From Bacteroidetes bacterium GWF2_33_38 (GTDB lineage Bacteria > Bacteroidota > Bacteroidia > Bacteroidales > GWF2-33-38), in contig MEOF01000003.1 of NCBI GenBank assembly GCA_001769505.1, positions 1 through 44,954 of the forward strand: DNA of 44,954 nucleotides. The letters are read 5' to 3'. The translations under genes were made by a program, and so were the position numbers. Below the pieces are notes generated by a model, which saw only the letters and a list, made by a program, of their open reading frames with translations, searched no databases and had not been told where the DNA came from. Shown one piece after another: positions 1,140 through 37,800 of this stretch; position 1 is the stretch's first letter; each line of letters starts with the position of its first letter.

Positions 1140-1280
1140 ATTTAGATTTTACAATTCGATTCATTTTAATTTTTTGATAAGTTCTTGATTTCTATTCAAA
1201 AATTATGTACATTTACTTGTTTGATTTTTTTTCTTTTAAAGAAGGTTCTTTTTTATAAAAATATTTTGTAGCGAAAGCTT

Positions 1281-1427
1281 TTATTCTTGCTCAAGAAAAC
1301 TGGTAATTTTTAGCAATGCAAGTGTAAAAAGTGGACGCTCACGCCATAGGGCGTGGGCTTTACTTATTTGCATTGCGGGTATACCAGTACCACTTGAGCA
1401 GATAATGTATAGTACCACGCTTTTTTT
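1281..1427 (+). ncRNA. Candidate structured RNA or leader element
   Basis: Five nested helices can be drawn by eye: 1289-1295 with 1393-1399 (GCTCAAG/CTTGAGC), 1300-1305 with 1382-1387 (CTGGTA/TACCAG), 1313-1321 with 1368-1376 (GCAATGCAA/TTGCATTGC), 1324-1328 with 1359-1363 (GTAAA/TTTAC), and 1337-1345 with 1350-1358 (one G-T pair, loop ATAG). That is 36 pairs in 111 nt. An unpaired AAGTGGAC (1329-1336) lies opposite a stacked junction. Downstream, CCACGC followed by seven Ts (1415-1427) could instead pair with GCGTGG at 1351-1356. It ends 34 nt before the secreted-protein gene at 1462, so it could be a leader, a small RNA or a mobile palindrome. I do not recognise the family. Confidence 0.5.
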
Positions 1428-1461
1428 GTGCCTATTAACAATTTAAAGCGTTTTTAAAGAT

Positions 1462-2478
1462 ATGAAAAGTAAAATTATTGTAATAGTAGCATTTTTTGCA
1501 GTAAGCTGTGCTTACTCGCAAAACCTTGTGCCTAATCCAAGTTTTGAAAATCGTGTAACATGCGACATTTATGGTGATTGTCCAACAGCACCGGTTATAT
1601 GTATTGCTGAATTCTGGTCAAGTGCAAGAGGTATTGTTGAGTATTATAATTCTTGTAGTGAAAATATTAATTCTCCTTTCTTTGGTTACAATATTGGAAG
1701 TTTTTCTGTACCACATAATGTATCTGGTAATCAAAATGCAGTAACTGGAAATGCTTATGCAGGTATTTTAACCCATTTGGGTTACAATCCAAATAATAGT
1801 AATGAACGTGAATGGCTGAAATGTAAATTAGTTAGCCCACTTGTTATTGGTGAAAAATATTATATTAATTTTAAAGTATCATTAGCCGATAGTGCTAATT
1901 GTGCTACAAATAATATTGGTGTTTTATTTTCTACAAATACTATTTACCAAGAAGTTTATATACCATTAAACAATTTTGCACATTTTAAAACTGATGAAAT
2001 TATTCAAGATACCACTAATTGGACTTTTATATCGGGTTCATTTATTGCTGATTCTGCTTATAATTATATGATTATAGGTAATTTTTTTGATTACTCATTA
2101 ACTGATTCAATTTTTTACACTGACAGACCAATTGGTCAAATTTTTTCCCATTCAAGTGGCTGTTATGCATATTATTATATTGACGATATTTATGTAAGTA
2201 AAGATTCATTAATTAACAATATTACATTAAATAATGAACAATATCTAAAATTATTTCCAAATCCAGCTACTGAGTTTATTAATTTAACTATATCAAACAT
2301 AATAACATTACCTGTAAAATTAATATTATACGATATAACAGGCTATTGTTTGAAAACTTATATAATAAACTCTTATAATAGTGTTATAAATATATTAGAA
2401 TTTAATTCTGGTATTTATAATATTCAATTACTATCTAAAAACAAAATTTATAATCAAAAATTAATTATTAATCATTAA
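1462..2478 (+). CDS. Secreted 'NLVPNPSFE' protein with type A sorting domain (copy 1)
   Basis: This 338-residue protein has a signal peptide of about 19 residues ending AYSQ, then NLVPNPSFEN. It continues with a beta-sandwich-like region typical of Bacteroidota surface proteins: a cysteine-containing CP motif, a Trp-containing stretch, GNAYAGI, EREWLKCKL and a YYINFKVSLAD segment. Residues about 262-338 form a type A sorting domain (LFPNPATEFINL ... GIYNIQL), so it should be exported by T9SS and anchored or released at the surface. No enzymatic motif is seen and the binding partner is unknown. The truncated tail-fibre-like gene follows after 5 nt, and the pair is paralogous to 3139-6907. The ATG at 1462 directly precedes the signal peptide. 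Confidence 0.8.
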   Translation: MKSKIIVIVAFFAVSCAYSQNLVPNPSFENRVTCDIYGDCPTAPVICIAEFWSSARGIVEYYNSCSENINSPFFGYNIGSFSVPHNVSGNQNAVTGNAYAGILTHLGYNPNNSNEREWLKCKLVSPLVIGEKYYINFKVSLADSANCATNNIGVLFSTNTIYQEVYIPLNNFAHFKTDEIIQDTTNWTFISGSFIADSAYNYMIIGNFFDYSLTDSIFYTDRPIGQIFSHSSGCYAYYYIDDIYVSKDSLINNITLNNEQYLKLFPNPATEFINLTISNIITLPVKLILYDITGYCLKTYIINSYNSVINILEFNSGIYNIQLLSKNKIYNQKLIINH

Positions 2479-2483
2479 ATCAA

Positions 2484-2819
2484 ATGCTTATGAAAAATTG
2501 TATTATTAAATTGACATTAGTTACATTATTTGTAACGAGTAATTATTTGTTGATGTCGCAGACTCAAACAGACTCAACAATGGTAAAAATAGGCTCAAAT
2601 AATGGACAGGGAAACCTCTGGAAGAAAGATAATTCTACAGGTACTATATACAACAATCCTACGAATAGCAATGTAGCAATTGGGAAACAAGTTGCTCAAG
2701 CTCCATTAGATGTTAATGGAGAAATAAAATCGGATAGCATTAAAGTTGAAGGCACAATAACCGCCGATAGTATGCACGTACGCTCTTTAAGAGTTGGTAA
2801 TAACCAGAGTTATTCGTAA
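2484..2819 (+). CDS. Truncated tail-fibre-like surface protein (N-terminal part only)
   Basis: The 111-residue product has a signal peptide and ends after a segment matching the N-terminus of the 927-residue protein at 4124: here TITADSMHVRSLRVGNNQS, there TITADSIHVRSIRIGQNS. The large protein goes on for over 800 residues with head repeats, an S74 domain and a sorting domain. This one stops at once, so it is probably a gene remnant. Two in-frame starts exist, ATG 2484 and ATG 2490; the second (MKNCIIKLT) gives the more usual signal peptide. It lies 5 nt after the upstream gene and its end overlaps the end of the convergent XRE gene by 10 nt. The missing remainder may have been lost when the XRE gene arrived. 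Confidence 0.65.
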   Translation: MLMKNCIIKLTLVTLFVTSNYLLMSQTQTDSTMVKIGSNNGQGNLWKKDNSTGTIYNNPTNSNVAIGKQVAQAPLDVNGEIKSDSIKVEGTITADSMHVRSLRVGNNQSYS

Positions 2820-3061
2820 AAAAAAGATTTTTCGATTTTTAAATCACTTAAAATGCTTAAATCAATTTCTAAAATAGTAAATATTTTTAACAAGGTTAAA
2901 ATGGTAGGGTTTACTTCGCCTTTTTCAATGCGACGAATTTGTTTTTCATCGGTATTTAGTTCTAACGCAAGTTTATTACGCGACATTCCTTTTGTAATTC
3001 GCTGGTTTGCAATAACATTACCTATTTCCGATAGAACTTTTTGTTGTGATTTGTTTCGCAC
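2810..3061 (-). CDS. Small XRE-family HTH regulator
   Basis: The 83-residue protein is almost entirely a Cro/C1-type helix-turn-helix domain (about residues 13-66). It shows VIANQRITKGMSRNKLALEL for helices 1-2 and TDEKQIRRIEKGEVNPTI for the recognition helix and following turn, then a LLKIFTILEIDL tail. The size and sequence resemble HipB-like antitoxins and small orphan regulators. No toxin gene is next to it, so a toxin-antitoxin role is not supported. It is convergent with the truncated surface gene and divergent from the gene at 3139. A perfect palindrome (3097-3110) lies in the divergent gap and is a natural candidate for its operator. Confidence 0.8.
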   Translation of the reverse strand: MRNKSQQKVLSEIGNVIANQRITKGMSRNKLALELNTDEKQIRRIEKGEVNPTILTLLKIFTILEIDLSILSDLKIEKSFFYE

Positions 3062-3096
3062 AACAAATGTTTTTTAAAATATTTTTAATTTATTCG

Positions 3097-3110
3097 GTCA
3101 TATATGACCT
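3097..3110. promoter_or_regulatory. Palindromic candidate operator GGTCATATATGACC
   Basis: A perfect 14-bp palindrome lies between the start of the XRE gene (3061, minus strand) and the start of the secreted-protein gene (3139, plus strand). Its position, length and symmetry fit a dimeric XRE repressor site that could control either or both genes. Binding by this regulator is an inference. Confidence 0.5.
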
Positions 3111-3138: not shown

Positions 3139-4110
3139 ATGAGAAAAATTTATTACATAACAATATTATTTTGTTTGATTATTTTTAAATCAAACGCTCA
3201 AAATTTAGTCCCTAACCCGAGCTTTGAGGAATACACGGTGTGCCCACCTGGTAATTCAACTAACATTTCATATTTACCAACTGGGTGGAATATTAACATT
3301 AATTCTGCTGATTATTTTAATGTGTGTGCACCTATTTATACTCAAGTATCTATTCCAACAAATGCTTGGGGTTTTCAATACCCTTATTTGGGGAATGCAT
3401 ATTGTGGATTTTATGGAAATACAAAAACATTTACGGGTAACGATGCAAGAGAATTATTTGGTTGTGAATTATTAACTCCCTTACAAATACAAAAGAAGTA
3501 TTATGTTAGTTTTGAAATAAATTTATCTAATACTTCTACTTGTGCAACAAATAAAATAGGAATATTACTTACAAATAATTTGTATGGAGATACAATTATG
3601 AATCCAAATTCAATAGTAAATAATTTTTCTCACTTTTATTCCACTGATATTATTTCAGATACTAATAAATGGATTACCGTAGAAGGCTCTTTTGTTGCAG
3701 ACTCTTCATATAATTATTTATTAATAGGTAATTTTTATAATAGCACTTACTTTGATTCTATATCTTTTAATGGAGATTCATTTTGTGGAACTTATTACTA
3801 TATTGATAATGTTTGCATTTCAGAAGATTCATTGACTTGTAACAATGGAACAAGTGTTAATTATTTATCTGAATATGTACCCTTTAATGTATATTTTAAT
3901 TCGATTGATAATAATTTAATCATTAAATCAACTCTAAATTGTAAAGCAAACTATGATATTTATAACGATTTAGGGATAATTCAACAATCAGGTAATTTCA
4001 ACTTAGAGCCTCAAAGTAAAATCAACTTAAATTATTTAAAAACAGGTGTTTATATCATTAAAATAAACTATAATAATCAAATTTATATAAAACGATTTCT
4101 AAAACTTTAA
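3139..4110 (+). CDS. Secreted 'NLVPNPSFE' protein with type A sorting domain (copy 2)
   Basis: This 323-residue paralogue of 1462-2478 has a signal peptide (MRKIYYITILFCLIIFKSNA) followed by QNLVPNPSFEEYTVCP. It shares with copy 1 the GNAYCGFYG, ARELFGCELL, YYVSFEINLS and CGTYYYIDNVCISEDSL segments. The C-terminal 70 or so residues resemble a type A sorting domain, with DLGIIQQSGN and LKTGVYIIKINYNNQIYIKRF. I chose ATG 3139 because the signal peptide starts there; the frame stays open 93 nt further upstream, but that extension would put a long unrelated stretch before it. The tail-fibre-like gene starts 13 nt downstream, so the two are probably co-transcribed. Confidence 0.8.
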   Translation: MRKIYYITILFCLIIFKSNAQNLVPNPSFEEYTVCPPGNSTNISYLPTGWNININSADYFNVCAPIYTQVSIPTNAWGFQYPYLGNAYCGFYGNTKTFTGNDARELFGCELLTPLQIQKKYYVSFEINLSNTSTCATNKIGILLTNNLYGDTIMNPNSIVNNFSHFYSTDIISDTNKWITVEGSFVADSSYNYLLIGNFYNSTYFDSISFNGDSFCGTYYYIDNVCISEDSLTCNNGTSVNYLSEYVPFNVYFNSIDNNLIIKSTLNCKANYDIYNDLGIIQQSGNFNLEPQSKINLNYLKTGVYIIKINYNNQIYIKRFLKL

Positions 4111-22860: not shown

Positions 22861-25800
22861 ATGAAAAAAAGTGTAAAAAATATAATGATTTTTAATCAAC
22901 TTACAAAAAGTTTATCATTGTTAGTATGGCTAAAAAATACACACAGTGTAAAATTGCTATTGTTATTTTTTACGCAACTCTTTATTTCTATTAACATTTA
23001 TGCTCAAGCTGGAGAATGTGATGCTACAGTTCCTGTTTTTTATGTTGATTTATCGAATGACGCAAGTGGCTCTTGGGAAATGGAAAACGTTACGAGAGAT
23101 GGTTCGTGTTGTAGTTATTCACACCCACCACTAAGTTGTGTAAAGTTCATACTTACTTTAAATAGCGGAGCACGAAGTATAATTTTTAATGTAACAGATG
23201 GAGCTTTACCTTCAAATTTGGAGTGGCAGTTGATGAACCCCGATGGAGATTATTGTGATCCAACGGTTTACCCTGCAAATGTTCCTGTGTGTTTAAATGG
23301 AGTAGGACCTCATACTATAGTTTTTTGTAAACCAGGAGGTAATAATAATACTTATTCAATAACTTCAGTCCCTTCGTCTGTTTTGGAAATTGATTCTATT
23401 TTTAATGGTTGCAGTTATGTTTTAGATGCTGGAAGCGATTGGTCCACATTTTTTTGGAACACTGGAGATACTACTCAAACCATATCAGCACAAGATTCAG
23501 GATGGTATTGGGTTGAAACAAGTAATATTAATTGCATGTCCAAAAGAGATTCTGTATATTTTGGCTATATTCCTCCAATTTCTATTGGTAACGATACTTC
23601 TATTTGTTTTGGGCAAAACATAACATTATCCCCTGGAAATTCATATACATTTTATGAGTGGTCAACAGGAGTAAGTGGGAGTGATGCTAGTTCTATTACT
23701 GTTGGTGGAGGAACCTATAGTGTAACTGTAACAGATGCTACTGGGTGTATTTCAAATTCATCTATTCGGATAATAGAAGGGGCAAACATGGAAGTAAATA
23801 TTATTACTTCTAATGTGAAATGTATAGGCGAACAAACAGGTTCATTAAATCTTACAATTTCAGGAGGAATACAGCCGTATTCATATCTATGGAGTAATGG
23901 TTTTACTTCTGAAGATATAAATAATCTTTTTGTAGGAAATTATTCGGTTACTGTAACGGATTATATTGGCTGTCAAATTGATACTTCTGTTGTAGTGAGC
24001 GAACCTATTGCTCCAATCACGGTGTCAAGTTTAGTCAGCGATGCTTCTTGTTTTGAATCAAGTAATGGCATTATCGACATTAGTGTTTCAGGAGATGTGT
24101 CGCCTTATGCTTTTATTTGGGACAATGGTGCAATAACCGAAGATATTTCAAGTTTGCTTGCCGGAATTTATAGTGTTACCATTACTAGTGCAAATTTATG
24201 TTCTCAAGTTTTTACCGATACTGTTTTTCGTCCGTCGAATGTATTGTTGGCTTATATTGTAGGAAATTCTGCTAAGTGCAAAGGTTCGTTTGATGGAAGT
24301 ACTTCAACAACAGTTATTGGAGGAACGCCACCATATACGTATCTATGGAGCAATGGTCAAATAACTCAAGATATTTCAGACATTTCTGCTGGAAATTATT
24401 TGTTAACGGTAACCGACGCAAATTTATGTACGACTATTTCAAGTGTAAATATTGGTGAGCCAAGTGCTAGTATTTCGGTTTCTGCTACAGCAACCGAACC
24501 ATTATGTAGTGGAGCGTATGATGGTTCAATAGATTTAATTGTATCGGGAGGAACTCCAGATTATAGCTTTATTTGGAACACAAGTCAAATTTCGGAAGAT
24601 TTATTGGGTGTTTCTGCTGGAACATATTTTGTTACTGTTTCGGAAGTTAATAATTGTAAAGATTCCGTTTCAATTGTATTAGGAGAGCCAAATACGATAG
24701 ATATCTCATCAACAATAATTGATATTGAATGTTTCGGCGATTCAAATGGGAGTATAGATGTAAGTGTTTTGGGAGGAACTCCTGATTATTCGTATTTTTG
24801 GAATAATGGTTCAACAAACCAAGATTTGAATAATATTCAATCGGATACTTATGATTTGACGGTAGCTGATGCTCACTATTGTACACAAAAATCGTCAATT
24901 AATGTAAGTACACCTGATGAGTTATTGTATCAAATATTTGCAACAAGTGTCAGCTGTAAAGGGGGGAACGATGGAGCAATTAATCTAACCCCAATTGGCG
25001 GAACTGCTCCATATACATTTCTTTGGAATACAGGGGCAACAAGTGAAGATTTAAGCAATTTATCTATTGGAAATTTTTCAGTTGTAATTACTGATGCGAA
25101 TGCTTGTTCAACTTCGGCTGAAATTGTAGTTACTGAACCTGCAAATGATTTATCGGTTATCGTTATAGGAACAAATTTAGATTGCAACGGCATTCCAACG
25201 GGCGGAACACAAATATCCGTTAATGGAGGAACACCAAGTTATTCTTACTTGTGGAGCAATGGTTACACGAATGCTGATTTAACTAATTTGCTTGCTGGAA
25301 CATATAGTCTAACCGTTACCGACTCAAAGTCGTGTACGGCAAATGCAAGTGTAACTTTAACAGAACCATCAGCAATTACTGAGCTTACAAGTATTAATAA
25401 TCCTACTTGTGGACATGCAGATGGCTCTATTTCAGTAAGTGTTTCGGGCGGAACTCCTGGCTATTCGTATCTTTGGTCAAATGGAATTACTGTAAATTCT
25501 CTTTCCAATATTGATGCTGGAGCATATTCTCTTACTATTACTGATACTGAAAATTGTATAAAAGTAGTGAATGCTAATGTTGATGACGTAAATTCGCCCA
25601 CAATTACAACACAATCAGTTGCAGATGTAATTTGTTATGGTTCGGCTAATGGAAGTATTGCTGTGTCAGTAAGTGGCGGAACGTCTCCATACACATATCA
25701 ATGGTCAAATGGTGGAACATTGAATAGTATTTCTTCTCTTTCAGGTGGAACATACACAGTTGTTGTTGTTGATAATTTAGGTTGCACTTCTTCACAATCA

Positions 25801-28800
25801 ATAGATGTGTACGAACCTAGTGAGATTAATACAATTTTAGTTAAGCAGAATGTAAATTGTAATGCTGGAAGCGATGGCAACATCAACTTAATTGTCGAAG
25901 GAGGTACAAGCCCTTACTCTTTCAACTGGAATAATGGAGCTTCAACAGAAGATTTAATCAACATAGTTGCAGGTTCGTATATAGTAACTATTACCGATGC
26001 AAATGGTTGTATTGCTTCAGATAATATAAGCGTTACGCAACCAGCGAATGCTTTATCTGCAAGTGCAAATATTACAGCCGTTGTTTGTAATGGAGATGAA
26101 AATGGGAAAATTGATTTATCCGTAAATTTTGGAACCCCAACGTATGGTTATCAATGGTCTTCGGGACAACAATCGCAAGATATCGACAATTTGCAAGCAG
26201 GAACCTATGATGTTACAATTACAGATGCAAATAATTGTTTTATTAGTCATACATATACGGTTAGCGAACCACAGGTTTTGTCGGCAAGCATTGTTGGAAC
26301 TGATGTTTTGTGTAAAGGAGTTCCAACTGGCACTGCGACTTTAACCGTAACAGGCGGAAATATTGGAGCAAAAACCTATGTTTGGAACTATGGACAAGTA
26401 ACGCAGAATCTAACAAATATAGGCGAAGGAACCTACGAAGTAACAGTTACTGATTCTAAATCTTGTGTAACAACCGCTTCGGTAACAATATCAGAACCAT
26501 CGGCATTATCAGCAACTATCACTAAAACAAATATAAAGTGTAATGGTCAAGCAAATGGAACGGCGAATCTAGAAGTTAGTGGCGGAACACCTCCATATTC
26601 ATATTTGTGGAGTAATGGAGCAACTACTCAAGATTTAAGTAATATTGGTGCAGGAACCTATACGGTTACCGTCACTGATGATAATAATTGTACTGTAACT
26701 TCTTCAGTTTCGATATCATCGCCATCAGTCATCAGTGTAAGCGGAACTTCAAATACTGTTAGTTGTTTTGGAGGAAATGACGGAGAGGCTCTTTTAACCG
26801 TAAATGGAGGAACATCTCCATATACTTATCAATGGAATTTAGGACAAACATCAGAGGATTTAACGAATTTACAGGCTGGGATTTATTTGGTAACAATTTA
26901 TGATTCAAAACTTTGTAGTAAAACATATACAGTTACGGTAAATGAACCATCACCAATTTCGATAAATTCAGTTATAAGCGATGTTACTTGTCTGAATGGA
27001 AGCAATGGTGCTATTAATTTAACTATATCAGGAGGAACAGGTACATATACATATGTTTGGAATACAGGAGCAACAAGTCAAAATATTACTGGATTAAGCG
27101 ATGGAATTTATGAAGTTACCGTTTCAGATGCAAATTTATGTACAAATTCGAGTGCATTCACAATTGAACAACCCAGTACATCTATTACGATAGGTTTAGA
27201 TGCATATAATTTGAAATGTAGAGTTGGAGCCGATGGCGAAATTAACGCAACTATTAGTGGAGGAACACCTCCTTATACATACTTGTGGAGCAATGGCACA
27301 ACAACTCAAGACTTGACAAATTTATCAATAGGAACCTATACATTAACTGTAACAGATGCTAATGGTTGCACAAAATCATCATCGACAACTTTAACACAAC
27401 CCAATACACTTTTAACTTTAGCAACAACTCAAACAGATATTTTATGTAATTCTGCCTCTACTGGAGAAGTTAATTTAACAGTTACTGATGGAGTTCCTCC
27501 GTACACATATTTATGGTCGAATGGTCTGGTTTCGGAAGATGTTGCCAATCTTCCTGTTGGAACATATACTGTAAGTGTAACAGATGCCAATTCTTGTATA
27601 AAAAGCTCGTCAGTAACACTTATTGAGCCAAGTGCAGTAACCATTACCGATGTTTCCACTAACGCAACTTGTTTAACTCCAAACGGAAGTTCAACCTTAA
27701 CTGTTACAGGAGGAGTTGCTCCATATACATATTTATGGTCAACAGGAAGTACATCAAACAGTATTACGAATGTTACTTCGGGAGCATATTCTGTAACCGT
27801 AACAGATAGCCATGCTTGTGAAACCGATTATTCGGCTGATGTTAATGATGCTACTGGACCAAATGTTCAAATTTCTTACAAGTCAGATGTAACTTGTCAT
27901 GGTGATGCCGATGGAACGGCTACGGTTTATGTGATAAGTGGGTTAGCTCCATATACTTACTTATGGTCAGGAGGAAGCACAACTACCATACAAAGCAATC
28001 TGTCTGGAGGTTATCAAACTGTTCGAGTAACTGATGTTAATGGTTGTGTTGCTTCTCAATCGGTTTATATTAATGAACCTGAGCAGCTTGTTGTAACTAA
28101 TTATACTCCAAATATTTGTGATATAGCTGAATTGGGCTATATTGATTTATCAGTAACTGGCGGAATTCAAAATTATAGATACGAATGGAGCAATGGAAGT
28201 ACGTCGCAAGATTTGATTGATATTCCATCTGGAAACTATGTAGTTACGGTTACAGACGTAAATGCTTGTCAAGTTATTCAATCAATCGATGTTGATGCTC
28301 CCGCAATTACACTTTCTTCTTCAGTTGTTGGTACAAATGTGCAATGCAAAAATGCCTCAGATGGTGTAGCAAATATAAGCGTTGTTGGAGGGGCTTTACC
28401 ATATACATATTTGTGGAATTTTGGACAAATAACCGAAGATTTGAATAATATTACGGCTGGATTTTATGAAGTTACCGTTAGTGATGCAATCGGATGTAAA
28501 TCCATATCATCAATAACAATTACAGAGCCTTCTTTAATAATTAAAAATACAGTTAGAACGAATGTAACTTGTAATGGATTATCGAACGGAAGCATTGATT
28601 TAACGTCGAGTGGAGGAACTGCTCCTCATACATTTTTGTGGAGTAATGGAGAAACAACAGAAGATATTCTAAACATTTTAGCAGGTTCGTACACTGTAAC
28701 CATTACCGATGCAAATAGTTGTAGCACCACAATTTCTGCTACAGTTTCTGAACCTACAGAATTAACAGCGACAATATTAGGCACAAATGTAAAATGTAAT

Positions 28801-31800
28801 GGAGATAATTCAGGAACCGTTAGCGTGGTTGCCTCAGGAGGAACTCCTCTTTATTCGTATATTTGGTCGAATGGTTCAACGCAATCAAGCCAAACAAACG
28901 TAACTTCAAATACTTATTTGGTAACTGTAAGCGATGCAAACTTATGTTCTGTAAATAAATCATTGATAATTACGCAACCTAATGTTTTAACAACAAGCAT
29001 TGTGTCGTCTAACGTGAGTTGTTATGGTGATGTAAGTGGAGCCATTACATTAACTGTCGGTGGAGGAGTTCAAGATTATAGTTATATTTGGAACTTTGGA
29101 CAAACTTCGTCAACACTTCCCGATGTACAAGCAGGAGATTATCAAGTAACAGTAACGGATGCAAATTTATGTACAAAAACCGATTCTGTTACAATCACAG
29201 AGCCAATTTCAGCATTATCTTCAACACTTGCCATTACAAATGTTAGTTGCAATACAGGAACTGACGGTGAAATAAATTTAACGGTTTCGGGAGGTACAAT
29301 TCCATATACTTATAATTGGTCGCTAGGTTCAAGTAATCAAGATTTAAGTGCATTAACAGCTGCGAGTTACGATGTTACAATTACCGATAACAATGGTTGT
29401 ATAACAACAAATTCAGCAATTGTTACTCAACCAAATGCATTATCGATAACCGATGTAAAAACGAATGTAAGTTGTAATGGAGGAAACGATGGTGCTATAA
29501 CAATTTCTGTTTCAGGAGGAACTCCTAGTTATTCTTACAATTGGGGTGGAGGAGTTACAACTCAAAACAGATCGAGTTTAGTTGCTGGAAATTATACTGT
29601 AACTGTTACAGATAGTAAATTATGTACTTTTTCAAAAAGTTTTACAATTTCCGAACCTTCAACAATTCAAATAACGGTTGACAGTGTAAATGTTGATTGT
29701 AATGGAAACTATAATGGGAGCATTGATATTACAGCATCAGGAGGTACTCCAACATATTCGTATATTTGGAATAATGGAACTACAGTTGCCGATTTAAATA
29801 GCTTGTCAGGAGGAATATTTAAGGTAACGGTAACAGACAAAAATGGATGCTTTGCTATAGAAGATGTTGTAATTGAGGAGCCCGATGAATTATCTGTTAT
29901 TGCAATTATCGAAAATGTAAATTGTAGAGGTAACGCAACTGGTGATATTCAATTATTAGTGAGTGGAGGAGTTGCAGCATATAATTTTGCGTGGAGTTCA
30001 GGGCAAACTGTTGATTCAATAGTTAATGTTGTCGCTGGAAATTATATTTGTACTGTAACTGATGATAATTCTTGTTCGGTAACTGTAAATTCAACAATCA
30101 CTCAGCCTTCGGCAAGTTTGGCAATTGTTCCTACATGGAATAATGTGAGTTGTTATGACGGAGCCGATGGTAGCATTAATCTAATTATCACAGGAGGCGT
30201 CCTAGCATATTCGTATTTGTGGAGTAATGGAATTACAAGCAAAAACTTGTCAAATATTTCAGCAGGAAGTTATACTATTACCGTAACCGATGCAAATTCT
30301 TGTATCGTATCAACTTCTGTTACAATTACTCAACCATTGGCTTTGAGTTCATCAATTTTACCATCGAATGTTTCTTGTTATGGTGATAATACAGGTCTGG
30401 CAGATCTTGAAGTATTCGGCGGAACAACTCCATATTCATATGCTTGGAGTAACGGGCAAATAGGATTAGATGATTTGAATGGTGTTGCAGCAGGGATTTT
30501 CTTTGTTACTATAACCGATAATAAATTATGTCAATTAATTGATACGGTCGAAATAACACAGCCAATTTCAGCACTTCAGAATGCTATTTCAGGAACAAAT
30601 GCTTCTTGTTACGGATTTAGCGATGGCTCTGCACAAGTTGTTTCGATAGGAGGAACAAGTCCTTACACATATTTGTGGAATTATGGACAAGTTACAAGTA
30701 TTATAAATGGAATTTCAGCAGGTTCATTTAGTGTTACTGTAACTGATTCATTGTCTTGTAAAACAATCTCGACTGTAAATATTACTCAACCGTTAGCTTT
30801 GAGTGCAAATATAATTGTGAGTCCGGTAAATTGTAATGGAGAGAATACTGGAAGTGCAAATTTAACTGTTACCGGAGGAACTCAGCCGTATTCGTATAGT
30901 TGGAGTAACTTTACTTCAAATGAAGACATTTCAAACGTAATTGCAGGTAATTATCAGATAACAATCACCGATGATAAAATGTGTACATTGATAGCATCAA
31001 CAACTGTTACAGAGCCTGCTCTTTTGGTGGCATCAATCAATGGTGATGATGTAAATTGTTATGGAGGAACAAGCGGTGTTGCTGATTTAACTACTATTGG
31101 AGGAACTCCGTCATATACTTATTTGTGGAGTAGTGGACAAACTAATCCAGATATTAGCGGGCTGGTTGCTGGGAATTATTCAGTTACTGTAAGCGATGCA
31201 AAGAATTGTGTTACATCGGCAAGTGTCAATATTCTTGAGCCAAATGCACCCTTAAACATAACATATTCAAGTGTCAATGCTTCCTGTTTTTCCTCAGCTA
31301 CAGGTTCTGTAAATATTAATGTGTCGGGAGGAACAACTCCGTACACATATTTATGGAATTATGGACAAACAACCCAAGACCTAAATAATATTGTTTCTGC
31401 AAATTATTCGATTACGGTAACCGACCACAATTCTTGTATCGAAACGCAAGATATTGGCATTTATCAACCTACAGAATTAACGGGTTCTATCACTCAAACA
31501 AAAGTTAAATGCAAAGGAGAAAGTACAGGAAGTCTCGATTTAACAGTATCTGGAGGAATCACTCCATACACTTATAATTGGTCTAATAGTGGAACAACCC
31601 AAGATATTTCAAATCTTTTAGCCGGATTGTATGCTGTTACTGTAACTGATGCAAACGGTTGTACAAAAATATTATCCAAGACTGTAACCGAACCATCAGG
31701 AATTCTTACAATTGTTATGAATCCAAGCAATGTAAATTGTTACGATGGTAACGATGGAGCTGTAAATTTGACAGTTTCGGGCGGGACTGCACCTTACTCA

Positions 31801-34800
31801 TATTTGTGGAGTAATGGATTAACAAGTGAAGACTTATTAAATGTTACAAATGGAACGTATGATATTACCGTTACCGATGTGAATAGTTGTATTACTTCAG
31901 GCTCAATTACAATTACAGAACCTACTCCATTAAGTTTAATCCCTTCGCAAACAAATTCTACCTGCGGAATTGCCGACGGTACAGCAACTGTAAGCGTATC
32001 AGGCGGAACGGTAGGTGCTGGCTATACATACCTTTGGTCAAATGGTGCAAATACACCTTCGGTTATTAACGTATCGTCTGGAGTATATACAGTTACAGTA
32101 ACCGATGCAAATAGTTGTTCGGATAATATTTCGATAGCCGTAAACGATGAAGGTGCTCCGATAGCAAACATTATAGGGCTGCAAGACGTTACTTGTAATG
32201 GGATGAATGATGGCTGGGCTACTGTAACAGCATCAGGAGGAACAGGAAGTTATGTTTACGAATGGTCAAATGGAGTTAGCACTACCACTGCAAGTAATCT
32301 AGATGGTGGAATATACTATGCTTCGGTTACTGATGATAATCACTGTTTATCGATTGCTACAGTTTCAATCTACGAACCGGAACAGTTATTAGGTTCAATT
32401 ACTCCTATTAATGTAAAATGTAAAGGAAACGCAACCGGAGCAGCAAATTTATTAGTACAAGGCGGAACAACTCCATATCAATTCGCATGGAGCAGCGGAC
32501 AGATAAGTGAAGATATTTCTTCAATTGTTGCTGGTTTTTATACGGCTACTATTACCGACTTGAATAGTTGTCAAACAATGGCTAGTGTCGTAATTTCAGA
32601 GCCAGCACAAGTACTATCGGCTTCAATTTCAAAAACAGATGCTCAATGTAACGGAAGCAGTGATGGTTTTGTAGATTTAGCTGTTGCTGGAGGAACTCCT
32701 GCATATTCGTATTTATGGAATTACGGACAAGTATCTCAAGATTTATCGGGAGTAGAAGCTGGGTTCTATGAAGTTACTATTACCGACAATAATGCATGTA
32801 AAACAACAGCTTCAACCATTGTTAATCAGGCATCAGAAATTATTTCAAGCATTGTAATTACAAATAGTACGTGTAATAATGCAAACAATGGTGCAGCTGA
32901 TTTATCGGTTTCGGGAGGAACGCTTCCATACACATATTTATGGAATACGGGAGATATAACACAAGATTTAGTTAGTATTGATGCCGGAGTTTACATAGTA
33001 ACAATCACCGACGGACATTTATGTACACAAATCGAAACAGCAACAATTACTGAACCAACAGGACTTGCATATACTATATCGGGGCAAAATGTTAAATGCT
33101 ACGGAGAGAGTACTGGAAGTATTTCTCTTCAAGTATTGGGCGGAACAATGCCTTACACTTATTTATGGAATTCAGGAAGCACAAATGAAGATTTAAGTAA
33201 TATTCCTGCTGGAAATTATCAGGTATTAATTACCGATGCGAAAAATTGCTCTGCAAATACCTCTATCCTTATTTCGCAACCTATTGCTAGTCTTGTTACT
33301 GGAATCACCGGTAATAATGTAACTTGTTACGAAGGAACTAACGGAAGCATTAACTTATCAGTTGGAGGTGGTACAACACCGTATTCATATCAATGGAATT
33401 ATGGACAAATCACACAAGATTTGAATAATATTCAGGCTGGAACATACGAAGTTACTATTACCGATGCTAACAATTGCACGGCATCAACTTCAAAAATTAT
33501 TATCGAACCTTCTGAAATAACTATGACTCCTTCTCAAACATCATCTACTTGTGGTATTGCAAATGGAATTGCTCAAATCGCTGTTAGTGGAGGAGTTGCT
33601 CCATATACGTACCTATGGAATAATTTGAAAACAACCTCGATGATTGATAGTCTTGTCGCAAATGCTTATAGCGTAACAGTTACAGATGATAATGGATGTA
33701 CAAATCAAATTACCATAAATGTAAATGACTTTGGAGCTCCTTCTGCTTCGCTTACATATTCAAATGTTTCGTGCTATGGAGCTGCTGATGGCGAAATTTT
33801 ATTGAATCTTTCAGGTGGCACATCTCCATTTTCATACGAATGGAACAATACTTACAATACAAGTAATATTACAAATCTTTCGGGGGGAGTCTACATTGTA
33901 ACAGTTACAGATGGAAATAATTGTGTTGCAACAGCTACAGCTGAAATATATGAACCCGATGAATTGAATTTATCCTCAAGTTCGGTTAATGTTATGTGTA
34001 AAAATGAGAGCGATGGCGAAATAAATTTAGATGTAATCGGAGGAACTCCAGGCGCCGGATACGTTTATAATTGGTCGAATGGACAACATTCTCAAGATTT
34101 AACTGGATTATCCGGCGGAACGTACACCGTTACTGTAATCGATGCAAATATTTGTTTCAAAACGTATTCTGTTACGATTAACGAACCTGATGATACTCTA
34201 AGTTCGAGTTTTGTTGCAAATCATGTTTCTTGTTATGGAATGACCAATGGTGTAGCTAATTTATCAGTAAATGGAGGTACTCCAAACTATACTTATCAAT
34301 GGAATCATGGTGCAAGTTCAGAAGACGTATCTAATTTAGGGGCTGGAAATTATGAAGTTACAATACTCGATGCAAACGGTTGTGCTGAGACAAATAGTAT
34401 TACAATTATACAACCAACTGTATTAAGCTCTACGGTTACTACTGACGATGTAAATTGTAAAAATGAAAACGATGGTTCTGCAACTTTGACTGTAAACGGA
34501 GGAACATCACCATATTCATATTTCTGGTCGAATGGAGATATTTCAAATAATCCTCAAAACTTAACTGCCAACGAATATTTGCTTACAGTTACCGATGCAA
34601 ATTTATGCAAATTGTATTCATCAATAACTATTTCCGAACCAGATGATGCATTATCGCTTATTTCTTTAAAAACTGATGTGAATTGTTACGGAGATAGCTC
34701 TGGTTTGATAAATGTATCAGTTTCGGGTGGCACTCCTACATATTCTTATCAGTGGAGCAATGGTATTACAAGTGAAGATGTTGCGAATATTCCTGCTGGC

Positions 34801-37800
34801 ACTTATTCATTAACAATTACAGATGCAAACGCTTGTCAAACTATATTGAACAATATTGCCGTAACTCAGCCAACACATGCATTGTCGATTGCATTTGCTC
34901 CCGAAGATGTAAACTGTTATGGAGATTACACAGGCACAATTAATTTGTCGGTAAGTGGAGGAACTCCAAGTTATGAGTATTTTTGGAATTCGGGTCAAAT
35001 AAATCAAGATTTATCAAATATTCCAGCAGGGCTTTATTCTGTTACCGTTACTGACAATAATGATTGTCGAATCAGTGGCGATATTACCATAAGCCAGCCT
35101 GCAAATCTTGTTGCGAATGTCTCAAAAACAAATGTTACTTGCTTTGGAGAATCGAATGGAAATTTGAATTTAACAGTTTCGGGCGGAGTAACACCATATA
35201 CATATGCGTGGAATTATGGGCAAACTACAGAAGATATTAGCATGACCGATGCCGGATTTTATTCTGTTACAGTAAGCGATGTAAATAGTTGCATTTTTGT
35301 AGTCTCTTCGGTCGTAAACGAACCGCAGCCAATTCAAGTTTCGTTTAACTCGTCAGATGTTTCGTGTCGTGGTGGCAACGACGGATATATTGATTTAAAT
35401 ATTTTGGGAGGAACACCAAATTATAACTATTCGTGGAGCAATGGAGATTTTACAGAAGACTTATCGGATATCACGGCTGGAAATTATATAGTAACTATTT
35501 CCGATAATAATTTCTGTACAGAAATTGAAAGTATCGAAATATACGAGCCTTCCACTTCGATTGTTGCTTCAATTTCAGGAACAAACGTAAGTTGTAATGG
35601 CGAAAACGATGGCGTTGCTATTGTCGCTGTTATCGGAGGAACTGGATCTTATCAATATCATTGGAATTTTGGCTACAATACTCCAAGCATAACCGGATTA
35701 GTTGAAGGTCTTTACGAAGTAACGGTGAGCGATGCTCACAATTGTATTGACACGGTTTCAATTCAGATTATCGAGCCTGCGTCCTTGGTTTTGTTGCCTT
35801 CAAAAACAAACTCAACATGTGGACAAAGTAACGGAACTGCTTCGGTCGACGTAATTGGAGGCACTCCTCCATATTCATATTATTGGTCATCGGGAGAAAT
35901 AGTTGATTCAATAGCCAACAAACCTGCCGGAGCTTATTCTGTAACGGTTGTTGATGCTCATTCGTGTTCAAATTTTATCATCATTAGCGTCAACGATTTG
36001 GGTGCTCCTGCATCGGAAATATCAAGTTTTACAAATCCATCATGTTATGGATACAACAATGGAACTGCTACGGTTTCAGCAGTTGGAGGGACGGGGAATT
36101 ACACTTATATTTGGTCAACTGGAGCGACACAAATAACGGCAAATAATTTATCAGCCGGACCTTATATTGTTACAGTTTCAGATGAAAATCATTGTATTTC
36201 GTCGTCGTCGGTGATAATTGAGCAACCCGATTCAATTAGTATAAGTTTTGTAACAACAGACGTATTATGCAACGGCGGCTCTGATGGGAGTGTAAATATG
36301 ACTGTTAGCGGAGGTACCCCAAATTATTTCTATCAATGGAACTACGGTCAAACTACACAAGATTTAGTTAATGTTGGCAATGGATTATACGAAACGACTG
36401 TTACTGATAGCAAGTCATGTTCAGCAACTGCATCAGTTCAGGTAAATGAACCGTCGCAGCAAATTGTTATTAACGAATCACATGTAAATGTAAGTTGTTA
36501 TGATTATTCAAATGGAAGTATAAACATTAGCGTTAGTGGAGGCACATCTCCATATACATACTTGTGGAATTTTGGTCAATTTACTCAAGATTTGAATAAT
36601 ATTGAGTCTGGAATTTACGAAATTACGGTTACTGATGCGAGAACTTGTACCGAAACAAAATTGATAAGTATTACACAGCCAACCCAAATTTCAATTAGTT
36701 CGATTGCTCAAAATGTTTCTTGTAATAGTATGAATGATGGCTCTATCGATATCACCGTTTCTGGCGGAACTCCATCTTATTCTTTCGAATGGATTAATGG
36801 CGATGGGTTTGAAGATATTTCGGGCTTATCAGAAGGGAATTACACCCTAACAGTTACCGATAGTAAATCGTGTACAGCAACAGAAATAGTTACTATTTCT
36901 CAACCCGATTCGCTATTCGCAAATATTAATTACGAAAATGTTAATTGTAAATCAGGAAACGATGGCTCCGCATACGTTATAGTTAGCGGAGGAACTCCTG
37001 AATATGAATATAATTGGAGCAATGGTTCAACAACCGAAGACATAAGTAATTTACCAGCAGGAACGTTTTACCTTACTGTTTCCGATGCAAATAATTGTGA
37101 GGCAATTGCCGAAGTTGATGTTGATGAACCTGCTAATAATCTTACAATTACATATTATCAATCAAACGTATCGTGTTATGGAGGCTACGATGGTTATATT
37201 GATTTGAATGTTTCAGGTGGAACGCCAAACTATACTTATGTGTGGAATTACGGACAAACTACACAAGATATTGTTGATTTGAATGCTCGTATTTATCAAG
37301 TTACCGTAACTGATGCAAATGGCTGTATCGAGACCGAAAATATAACTTTAAATCAGCCAGCACAAATCATAATCACTCCAATTTCGAGCATGTCGATGTG
37401 TAACGATTCAACTGGAATGGCAACAGCATCGACTGTAGGAGGTACGGGTGCTTATTCTTATTTATGGTCAACTGGTTCAACAAACGATTCGATTATTAAT
37501 ATTCCATCAGAAGCATATTCGCTTACAATTACCGACGAAAATTCATGTAGTCAAAGTATTACAATCAATGTAAATGACCTTGGTGCTCCTGATTTGTCTG
37601 TTACTTACGATGATGTTACTTGTTATGGAGATGCTGATGGCAGCATTGATTTATCGACTTCAGGCGGAGGAACTCCTCCATTTACTTATTTGTGGAGTAA
37701 CAATGAAATAACTCAGGATATTTCTAATCTCTCTGGAGGAAATTACGCAGTTACGCTTACAGATTTGAACAATTGCAGAGCTTTTATAAATCAGGATATA

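Follow-up and report, generated by a model that had tools for sequence, protein, structure and literature searches.

An uncatalogued leader RNA family of Bacteroidota in which one strand has two covarying and mutually exclusive partners

The locus

The window analysed here is a stretch of 44,954 nucleotides (positions 1 to 44,954 of contig MEOF01000003.1, assembly GCA_001769505.1) from Bacteroidetes bacterium GWF2_33_38. Near its start, a gene for a CvfB-like S1-domain RNA-binding protein (124-957; PF13509, PF17783) lies just upstream of a structured element, which is followed by a gene at 1462. This gene and a second at 3139 both read QNLVPNPSFE when inspected by eye. A preliminary description of the locus had placed a palindromic operator before the gene at 3139; the palindrome GGTCATATATGACC is present at 3096-3109, between that gene and a divergent HTH gene (2810-3061, minus strand), and is possibly the operator of the HTH regulator, a role for which no more than possibility can be claimed. 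Further downstream, positions 22861-40425 are occupied by a single ORF of 5854 aa.

The fold predicted for positions 1281-1427 had an energy of -58.0 kcal/mol, whereas shuffled sequences averaged -32.74 (sd 3.98), giving z -6.35, and 0 of 200 shuffles reached the native value; the minus strand of the same stretch folded more weakly (-48.0). Five nested helices had been described here and five nested runs are indeed present, comprising 43 pairs rather than the 36 first counted. The downstream T-run (seven T at 1421-1427) and the gap of 34 nt between its end and the ATG at 1462 were both correctly described. Using a covariance model built from 27 copies, the window copy among them (model R1), the leader unit was delimited as positions 1269-1429 of the plus strand, corresponding to family model positions 1-161 (147.8 bits, E 2.1e-29). 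The next-best R1 match in the window scored 13 bits (E 1), and there were no others up to E 10. The features are as follows.

1208-1215, plus strand: TACATTTA, one mismatch from the TAnnTTTG box; possible promoter of the window leader, for this copy an inference only, the exact box being enriched in other copies at a similar distance
1245-1251, plus strand: GTTCTTT, by eye like the CGTTCTTTA motif upstream of some copies without a mini-ORF
1269-1278, plus strand: segment M1, TAGCGAAAGC; small 5' hairpin by eye, perhaps also pairing with M4 to close the element
1281-1295, plus strand: left strand of arm A; partner about 1393-1405
1287-1295 and 1393-1400, plus strand: helix strands TTGCTCAAG and CTTGAGCA of the window fold
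1299-1305, plus strand: left strand of arm B, ACTGGTA; partner 1382-1388, also a helix of the window fold
1313-1322, plus strand: left strand of arm C; partner about 1368-1376
1313-1322 and 1368-1376, plus strand: helix strands GCAATGCAAG and TTGCATTGC of the window fold
1337-1345, plus strand: segment M2, GCTCACGCC; left strand of apical hairpin K
1337-1345 and 1349-1358, plus strand: helix strands GCTCACGCC and GGGCGTGGGC of the window fold
1351-1359, plus strand: segment M3, GCGTGGGCT; partner M2 (hairpin K) or M4 (alternative X)
1382-1388, plus strand: right strand of arm B, TACCAGT; from family covariation
1393-1405, plus strand: right strand of arm A, CTTGAGCAGATAA; from helix positions and family covariation
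1411-1420, plus strand: segment M4, AGTACCACGC; partner M3 (X) or, as many relatives show, a loop further downstream (Y); M1 is a third possibility
1421-1427, plus strand: seven-T run directly after M4; with X an intrinsic terminator, termination being inferred
1445-1451, plus strand: AAAGCGT, complementary to ACGCTTT, which spans M4 and the T-run; might replace Y in the window copy (single copy, weak)
1462-2478, plus strand: downstream gene, 338 aa; as first described, a type IX secretion (T9SS) cargo protein with a C-terminal sorting domain (PF18962, E 3.3e-08)

A family of related elements

BLAST with the folded stretch hit its own genome at five places, one of them the stretch itself, and a search with a fuller copy matched 19 of 99 relatives. 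Model R1 recovered six confident copies in the genome of origin (contigs C3, C21, C52, C54, C57 and C58); a seventh match (E 0.022) proved to be the antisense of one of these. Matches were obtained in 119 of 295 sampled genomes of the order (E 1e-3) and, as a lower bound, in at least 58 of 395 sampled genomes of the phylum (E 1e-6), with at most nine and seven candidates per genome scored, respectively, under stricter filters. Eight chosen genomes contained between 8 and 31 matches each. Additionally, a scan of genome contigs for the core pattern found at least 111 stretches, of which 80 were listed, each with an R1 match at E 0.01 or better. Among the matches listed, which are a sample, three of 80 came from Chlorobiota or Ignavibacteriales bins, three had uninformative titles and the others were Bacteroidota; named records included Flavobacterium, Chryseobacterium, Polaribacter, Pedobacter and many Bacteroidales.

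Three alignments were used. A2 comprises 27 BLAST-found copies aligned with MAFFT without structure fitting, and A4 comprises 101 model-found copies fitted to R1. The pattern-scan copies were chosen by core pattern, which biases hairpin K statistics on alignment A3; A2 and A4 were not so chosen. The pattern-scan set holds 95 R1 matches, of which 82 were kept for context counts and 13 left out: ten weak opposite-strand matches (palindromes already counted) and three that were partial or weak (two in L174, one in L156). One set of arm pairing percentages used 93 distinct pattern-scan rows, left-out matches included. The sets of 82 and 101 copies share 10 identical sequences, and further near-identical overlap is likely.

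No Rfam 15 family reached its gathering cut-off for the window element, there being 0 matches in the window, so the initial statement that no known RNA class could be recognised holds against this database. Below the cut-off, window positions 1180-1480 gave only PrfA (E 3.7) and mir-234 (E 1.4). Loci L002-L005 gave 11 weak matches, likewise below the cut-off (best E 0.6); among them GibS, snoR66 and BSR0626 overlapped the element (E 0.78-3.7) and disagreed between copies. Viral, phage and plasmid collections yielded no match by exact pattern or BLAST, a search of limited sensitivity; since nothing else was used, diverged copies in these collections would be missed. We conclude that the folded element belongs to a large leader RNA family of Bacteroidota that is absent from the RNA catalogue searched.

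Structure and covariation

Compensatory change among homologues had been named in the preliminary description as the check on its helices, and it was found. In A2, for which no structure model was used, a nested structure of 45 pairs had 90.7% of cells paired (74.3% in shuffles) and two-sided changes in 32 of the 45 pairs, with 206 two-sided cells as against 62.3 in shuffles. Covariation was 0.494, compared with 0.188 when shuffled and no more than 0.106 with slid partners; the structure is favoured over its slid versions, having been drawn up after inspection of the same sequences. In the model-fitted A4 (n=101) covariation was 0.671 versus 0.188.

The inner part of arm A was 95.4-97.5% paired in relatives and its outer part 74.7-77.6%, the weakest of all; arm B had 98.9-99.5% of cells paired with two-sided changes at seven of seven pairs, arm C 95.0-95.8% over eight model pairs, all with two-sided changes, and hairpin K 98.3% (A4). 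Arms A, B, C and D vary in sequence yet remain complementary. The unpaired strips GAAA, AATTTC, GGGTA and ACCTC are mostly conserved, as is the apex GCTCACG...CGTGGGC. Hairpins GAAA/TTTC plus GGTA/TACC, considered as hypothetical kissing loops, were 91.7% paired versus 87.4%, with covariation of 0.145 versus 0.088, above all 500 shuffles; pairs with a two-sided change were no commoner than in shuffles (two, a count reached by 324 of the 500), and the reading is unsupported.

Related copies were compared in 12 chosen pairs on the model-fitted A3, where 72 two-sided changes stood against 22 one-sided changes that kept pairing. For L161/L176, 43 base pairs were scored and 13 of them had two-sided changes, and 16 of 71 unpaired columns differed; in four of the 12 pairs there was no change, the scored pairs being identical. 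Many two-sided changes on A3 were swaps, such as CG to GC or UA to AU. The arms look as if rewritten as a unit, by template switching or by selection for distinct arms.

The plus strand is the strand that folds. On it, G-U pairs outnumbered A-C mismatches by 94 to 29 in A2 and by 344 to 74 in A4 (53 to 19 and 205 to 71 without the pairs at which either was common), and it folded the more stably in 100 of 101 copies.

Mutually exclusive pairings of M4

Two short complementarities competing with the nested fold had been noted in the window, AAGTGG/CCACTT and GCGTGG/CCACGC. The former is confined to the window copy: CCACTT was found in one of the 27 A2 sequences, and 25 of the 27 have CCTC at this place. 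It was rejected as a pairing of the family. The latter corresponds to the pairing of M3 with M4, here called X, which recurs and covaries in relatives. In A2, 97.9% of its cells were paired and three pairs had two-sided changes; in A4 it scored 18.15, compared with a permuted mean of 17.11 (sd 0.12) and a maximum of 17.51 (5000 permutations, n=101). In genome G272, for instance, M3 is TCGTGGGCT and M4 is AGTTCACGA.

M4 has a second partner, in a loop beyond the T-run. This pairing, Y, scored 15.22 on A4 versus 12.61, with a permuted maximum of 13.48 (5000 permutations, n=101). When A4 was reduced to 70 dereplicated copies, X scored 18.33 (permuted maximum 17.81) and Y 15.24 (maximum 13.92). 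In the partly overlapping pattern-scan set, Y could be scored for 93 of 95 copies among the matches listed and reached 12.85 versus 10.57 (maximum 11.54; 10000 permutations, n=93); a sub-test aimed at copies with unusual tails took in all 93 and carries no further information. Examples are AATGTCCC/GGGACATT in L141, AATGCCCC/GGGGCATT in L155 and TCAGACCC/GGGTCTGA in L159. The closing stem M1:M4 was the weakest of the three, its score (16.06; permuted mean 15.24, maximum 16.07) falling within the permuted range. None of these permutation tests corrects for relatedness.

As both use M4, X and Y are mutually exclusive. The element thereby has the structural features of an attenuator, whose signal-dependent early termination is here only inferred, namely exclusive helices that share a strand, both exceeding all 5000 permutations, with one stem followed by a U-run. 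TTTT follows M4 in 75 of 82 pattern-scan copies among the matches listed and in 93 of 101 model-found copies, two partly overlapping sets, and is missing from seven and eight copies, respectively; in some lineages the T-run is displaced or interrupted, as in CGCTTCGTTG of L028. In the window copy, X is weak, with six pairs, and Y is not recognisable.

Exchanging K for X carries a mean cost of 6.8 kcal/mol (sd 3.0, range -2.7 to 14.5), any pseudoknot penalty excluded. X needs K to be opened and, without a pseudoknot, arms A-C as well, and the terminator state is therefore disfavoured by energy alone; a ligand or protein could pay this cost. Y lies beyond the T-run, which leaves it no ordinary antiterminator role. 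From the exclusive pairing we infer that the element is probably a switch for the genes downstream, switching and attenuation being inferences. The two-state leader originally suggested is thus supported in respect of GCGTGG/CCACGC, although switching itself has not been shown, and finds no support in AAGTGG/CCACTT.

Placement before genes and upstream features

Copies at random positions would have counted against the element as first described, and these were not seen. Among the matches listed, the next gene pointed in the same direction in 71 of 76 pattern-scan copies, as it did in 37 of 38 copies from three further genomes (drawn from 40 of their best matches: 16 of 19, 4 of 14 and 20 of 31). 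The upstream gene, again among the matches listed, was in the same direction in 35 copies and in the opposite direction in 35. Six of the 82 kept copies had no called downstream gene and 12 no called upstream gene; the gene calls behind these direction and spacing counts followed a simple longest-ORF rule.

For 102 elements (82 from the pattern scan and 20 chosen from other loci), a first gene, defined as a same-direction ORF within 400 nt, was found in 90 cases. The spacing between element and gene had a median of 52 nt (range 6 to 373); 38 of the 90 genes begin 40-59 nt past the element and another 38 at 70 nt or more. In six scored Flavobacterium copies the next gene was 213-323 nt away. 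A cis-regulatory leader is expected to stand 5' of its gene in a constant place and orientation and to show a conserved structure with compensatory changes on the sense strand, and the element does both.

The -7 box of Bacteroidota promoters is TAnnTTTG. Upstream sequence sufficed in 78 of the 82 kept copies (four had too little), and among the matches listed this box occurred at -100 to -60 in 37 of the 78 and at -60 to -20 in 24 (shuffled mean 3.57). Within 90 nt, most occurrences lay between -75 and -46, and another group was centred near -35. In the absence of RNA-seq, this enrichment is only indirect evidence that element and gene are transcribed together.

A mini-ORF consisting of a start codon, one codon and a stop was present in 34 of the 78 copies among the matches listed, compared with a shuffled mean of 5.35 and maximum of 14; 24 of its 36 occurrences began at -33 to -28. 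With TAA as the only stop permitted the count was 29 of 78, and with the spacing one base longer or shorter it fell to two and three of 78, all among the matches listed. The middle codon is variable, ACA being commonest, followed by AAA, ATA, GCA, GAA and others; two copies of one genome (L261 and L262) have ATG directly followed by TAG, and in one genus ACG often replaces the ATG of others. The remaining 44 of 78 copies among the matches listed, that of the window included, lack the mini-ORF. By eye, a GTTCTT-like motif stands in its place in most Flavobacterium and several Bacteroidales copies, again including the window's.

Downstream genes

Of the 90 first genes, 80 were compared with Pfam; their matches spread over 74 families, none in more than six of the 80; the commonest were TonB plug, CarbopepD_reg_2 and Por_Secre_tail, with six each. 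By a crude rule, an N-terminal hydrophobic segment was found in 65 of the 90, as opposed to 182 of 472 other ORFs of at least 100 aa in the same loci. A metabolite riboswitch would be expected before genes of a shared pathway, and no such pathway was found among the 80 first genes with their 74 families. Such diversity does not fit a single metabolite feedback loop, and a general signal is therefore likelier than a classical metabolite.

Proposed mechanism and alternatives

We favour the interpretation, as likely if well short of certain, that the element is a two-state cis-regulatory leader RNA, not yet catalogued, which serves a varied set of genes, most of them accessory or for exported products. 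By inference from the upstream box, transcription would start at a promoter some 50-75 nt before the element, nearer in some lineages, and many transcripts would carry the mini-ORF first, to which a role can only be ascribed by inference. About 165 nt would then fold into one long stem, built of arms A to D and capped by apical hairpin K, in which the internal loops are conserved and the arms vary but stay complementary; the T-run would follow, with the first codon a median of 52 nt further on. In the putative default state, M2 would hold M3 in hairpin K and transcription would proceed into the gene, M4 pairing with the downstream loop (Y) after read-through. A signal that opens K would allow M3 to pair with M4 (X) directly before the T-run, and the presumed outcome would be an early end of transcription or a hidden gene start. 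Such a general signal might be a protein, a ribosome at the mini-ORF, or a cue tied to the envelope or to growth.

A bolder version, which we offer tentatively and hold to be somewhat doubtful, is that of a general-purpose RNA switch throughout the phylum, in which several to dozens of copies per genome place exported and accessory genes under one global signal, perhaps a ribosome at the two-codon start-stop ORF. If true, Bacteroidota would place their surface proteins and toxins, along with recently acquired genes, under one shared RNA control. We know of no regulatory RNA in Bacteroidota that acts from the 5' leader on so wide and changeable a set of genes.

One leader links T9SS cargo, TonB-dependent receptors, lipoproteins and some toxin-antitoxin genes, which offers a direct way into the control of surface and accessory genes in Bacteroidota. 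With matches in 119 of the 295 sampled genomes of the order, up to 31 matches per genome and no Rfam 15 entry at the cut-offs, the family would rank among the larger regulatory RNAs still unrecognised in the phylum. Reporter mutants could test the simple predictions that follow from the alternative pairings.

An unlikely alternative, though the least unlikely of three, is that the element signals processive antitermination, its RNA binding RNA polymerase or a partner protein at the start of long surface-protein operons such that later terminators are ignored. The great variety of downstream genes, some of them for large surface proteins, would agree with this, and conserved internal loops on variable arms resemble a protein-binding scaffold. 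However, X, Y and the T-run would be left unexplained, and no extra NusG paralogue accompanies the element: in hand-picked samples, five of nine bearer genomes had a single NusG hit, and two or three hits were found in seven of 10 genomes without a match in the order scan. RRM proteins likewise do not track the element in these samples (five of nine bearers, seven of 10 matchless genomes).

We regard as improbable a mobile palindrome, either MITE-like or a folded single-stranded DNA for a transposase or recombinase, comparable to attC, that has spread with accessory gene cassettes. Its numbers per genome (8 to 31 in the eight chosen genomes), its same-orientation copies, some of them half elements, between toxin-antitoxin and other accessory genes, and the unit shared over more than 500 bp upstream in G272 (among the matches listed) would all suit such an origin. 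Against it are the fixed direction before genes at a favoured spacing, the stabler fold and G-U excess of one strand, compensatory changes between copies before similar genes (such as the 13 in L161/L176) and the position of Y and the mini-ORF outside the palindrome. Nor did the viral, phage and plasmid collections give a match, within the limited sensitivity of that search, and in the genome of origin the Y1 transposase genes are on other contigs.

Least credible is a family of trans-acting small RNAs that end at the T-run beside an incidental gene, for while the stable fold, the T-run and the distant genes of the six Flavobacterium copies could be so read, the co-directional gene in 71 of 76 copies (among the matches listed) and the covarying partner Y, by which the selected RNA reaches past the T-run, speak against it.

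Comparison with known systems

The two-state leader that we propose shares with trp-type attenuators and terminator riboswitches a promoter-like box, a short leader ORF in many copies, exclusive helices on one strand and a T-run shortly before the gene. It differs from them in that its genes have no common pathway and Y is past the T-run. Unlike the leader peptides of trp-type attenuators, its mini-ORF has a single variable codon before the stop and so cannot count one amino acid. First genes spanning 74 Pfam families likewise set it apart from ordinary riboswitches. The put RNA of phage HK022 and the EAR element of Bacillus are also structured leaders before operons, but our element precedes unrelated genes, in many copies per genome, and has alternative pairings and a T-run.

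With attC sites and REP/RAYT palindromes the element has in common an imperfect palindrome, a conserved structure and an association with accessory genes; it differs from them in its conserved apex, its one favoured position before genes and its strand bias. Integron attC sites have the ends GTTRRRY/RYYYAAC, and none was seen by eye in the element. No copy adjoins a Y1 transposase gene, as a REP/RAYT palindrome would, in the genome of origin, the only one considered, where Y1_Tnp matches are on contigs C15, C60, C20 and C27 and the elements on others.

Within open-licence papers, we found no recognisable description of the leader family. One report (PMC8040213) describes two candidates, HMP2_4205 (132 bp) and HMP2_1065 (80 bp), that are palindromic and mostly or wholly from Bacteroidetes; both are predicted intrinsic terminators, and HMP2_4205 is commonly near TPR genes. 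They resemble our element in being palindromic and from Bacteroidetes and differ in being shorter. They could overlap with the leader family. Another report (PMC9723704) describes 5' elements that lack Rfam hits in Flavobacterium psychrophilum.

Arrays and half elements

In some genomes the elements form arrays, partly of half elements, in the same orientation and separating toxin-antitoxin, PDDEXK and other accessory genes. These arrays suggested integron cassettes, a reading rejected on the placement of the element as a leader. The half elements (L045:4180-4250, L046:405-327, L046:1408-1361, L052:4384-4309 and L055:2469-2532) keep the 5' half to about M2, less in L046:1408, and lack the 3' half, unrelated sequence coming next; in some a gene starts soon after this sequence. 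They could be leaders that have lost the switch.

In genome G272, among the matches listed, a shared repeated unit extends more than 500 bp upstream of the leader. Here nine loci (L239-L241, L243-L245, L247, L251 and L252) have a shared upstream stretch rich in TTTTCATCGGA-like repeats before different genes. Tandem copies of element and gene were observed at L044:1970-4932, where the encoded proteins (pairs of 246 and 245 aa and of 91 and 101 aa) are alike at one end and different at the other, as in polymorphic toxin systems; the 91-aa protein matches a URI-fold toxin family.
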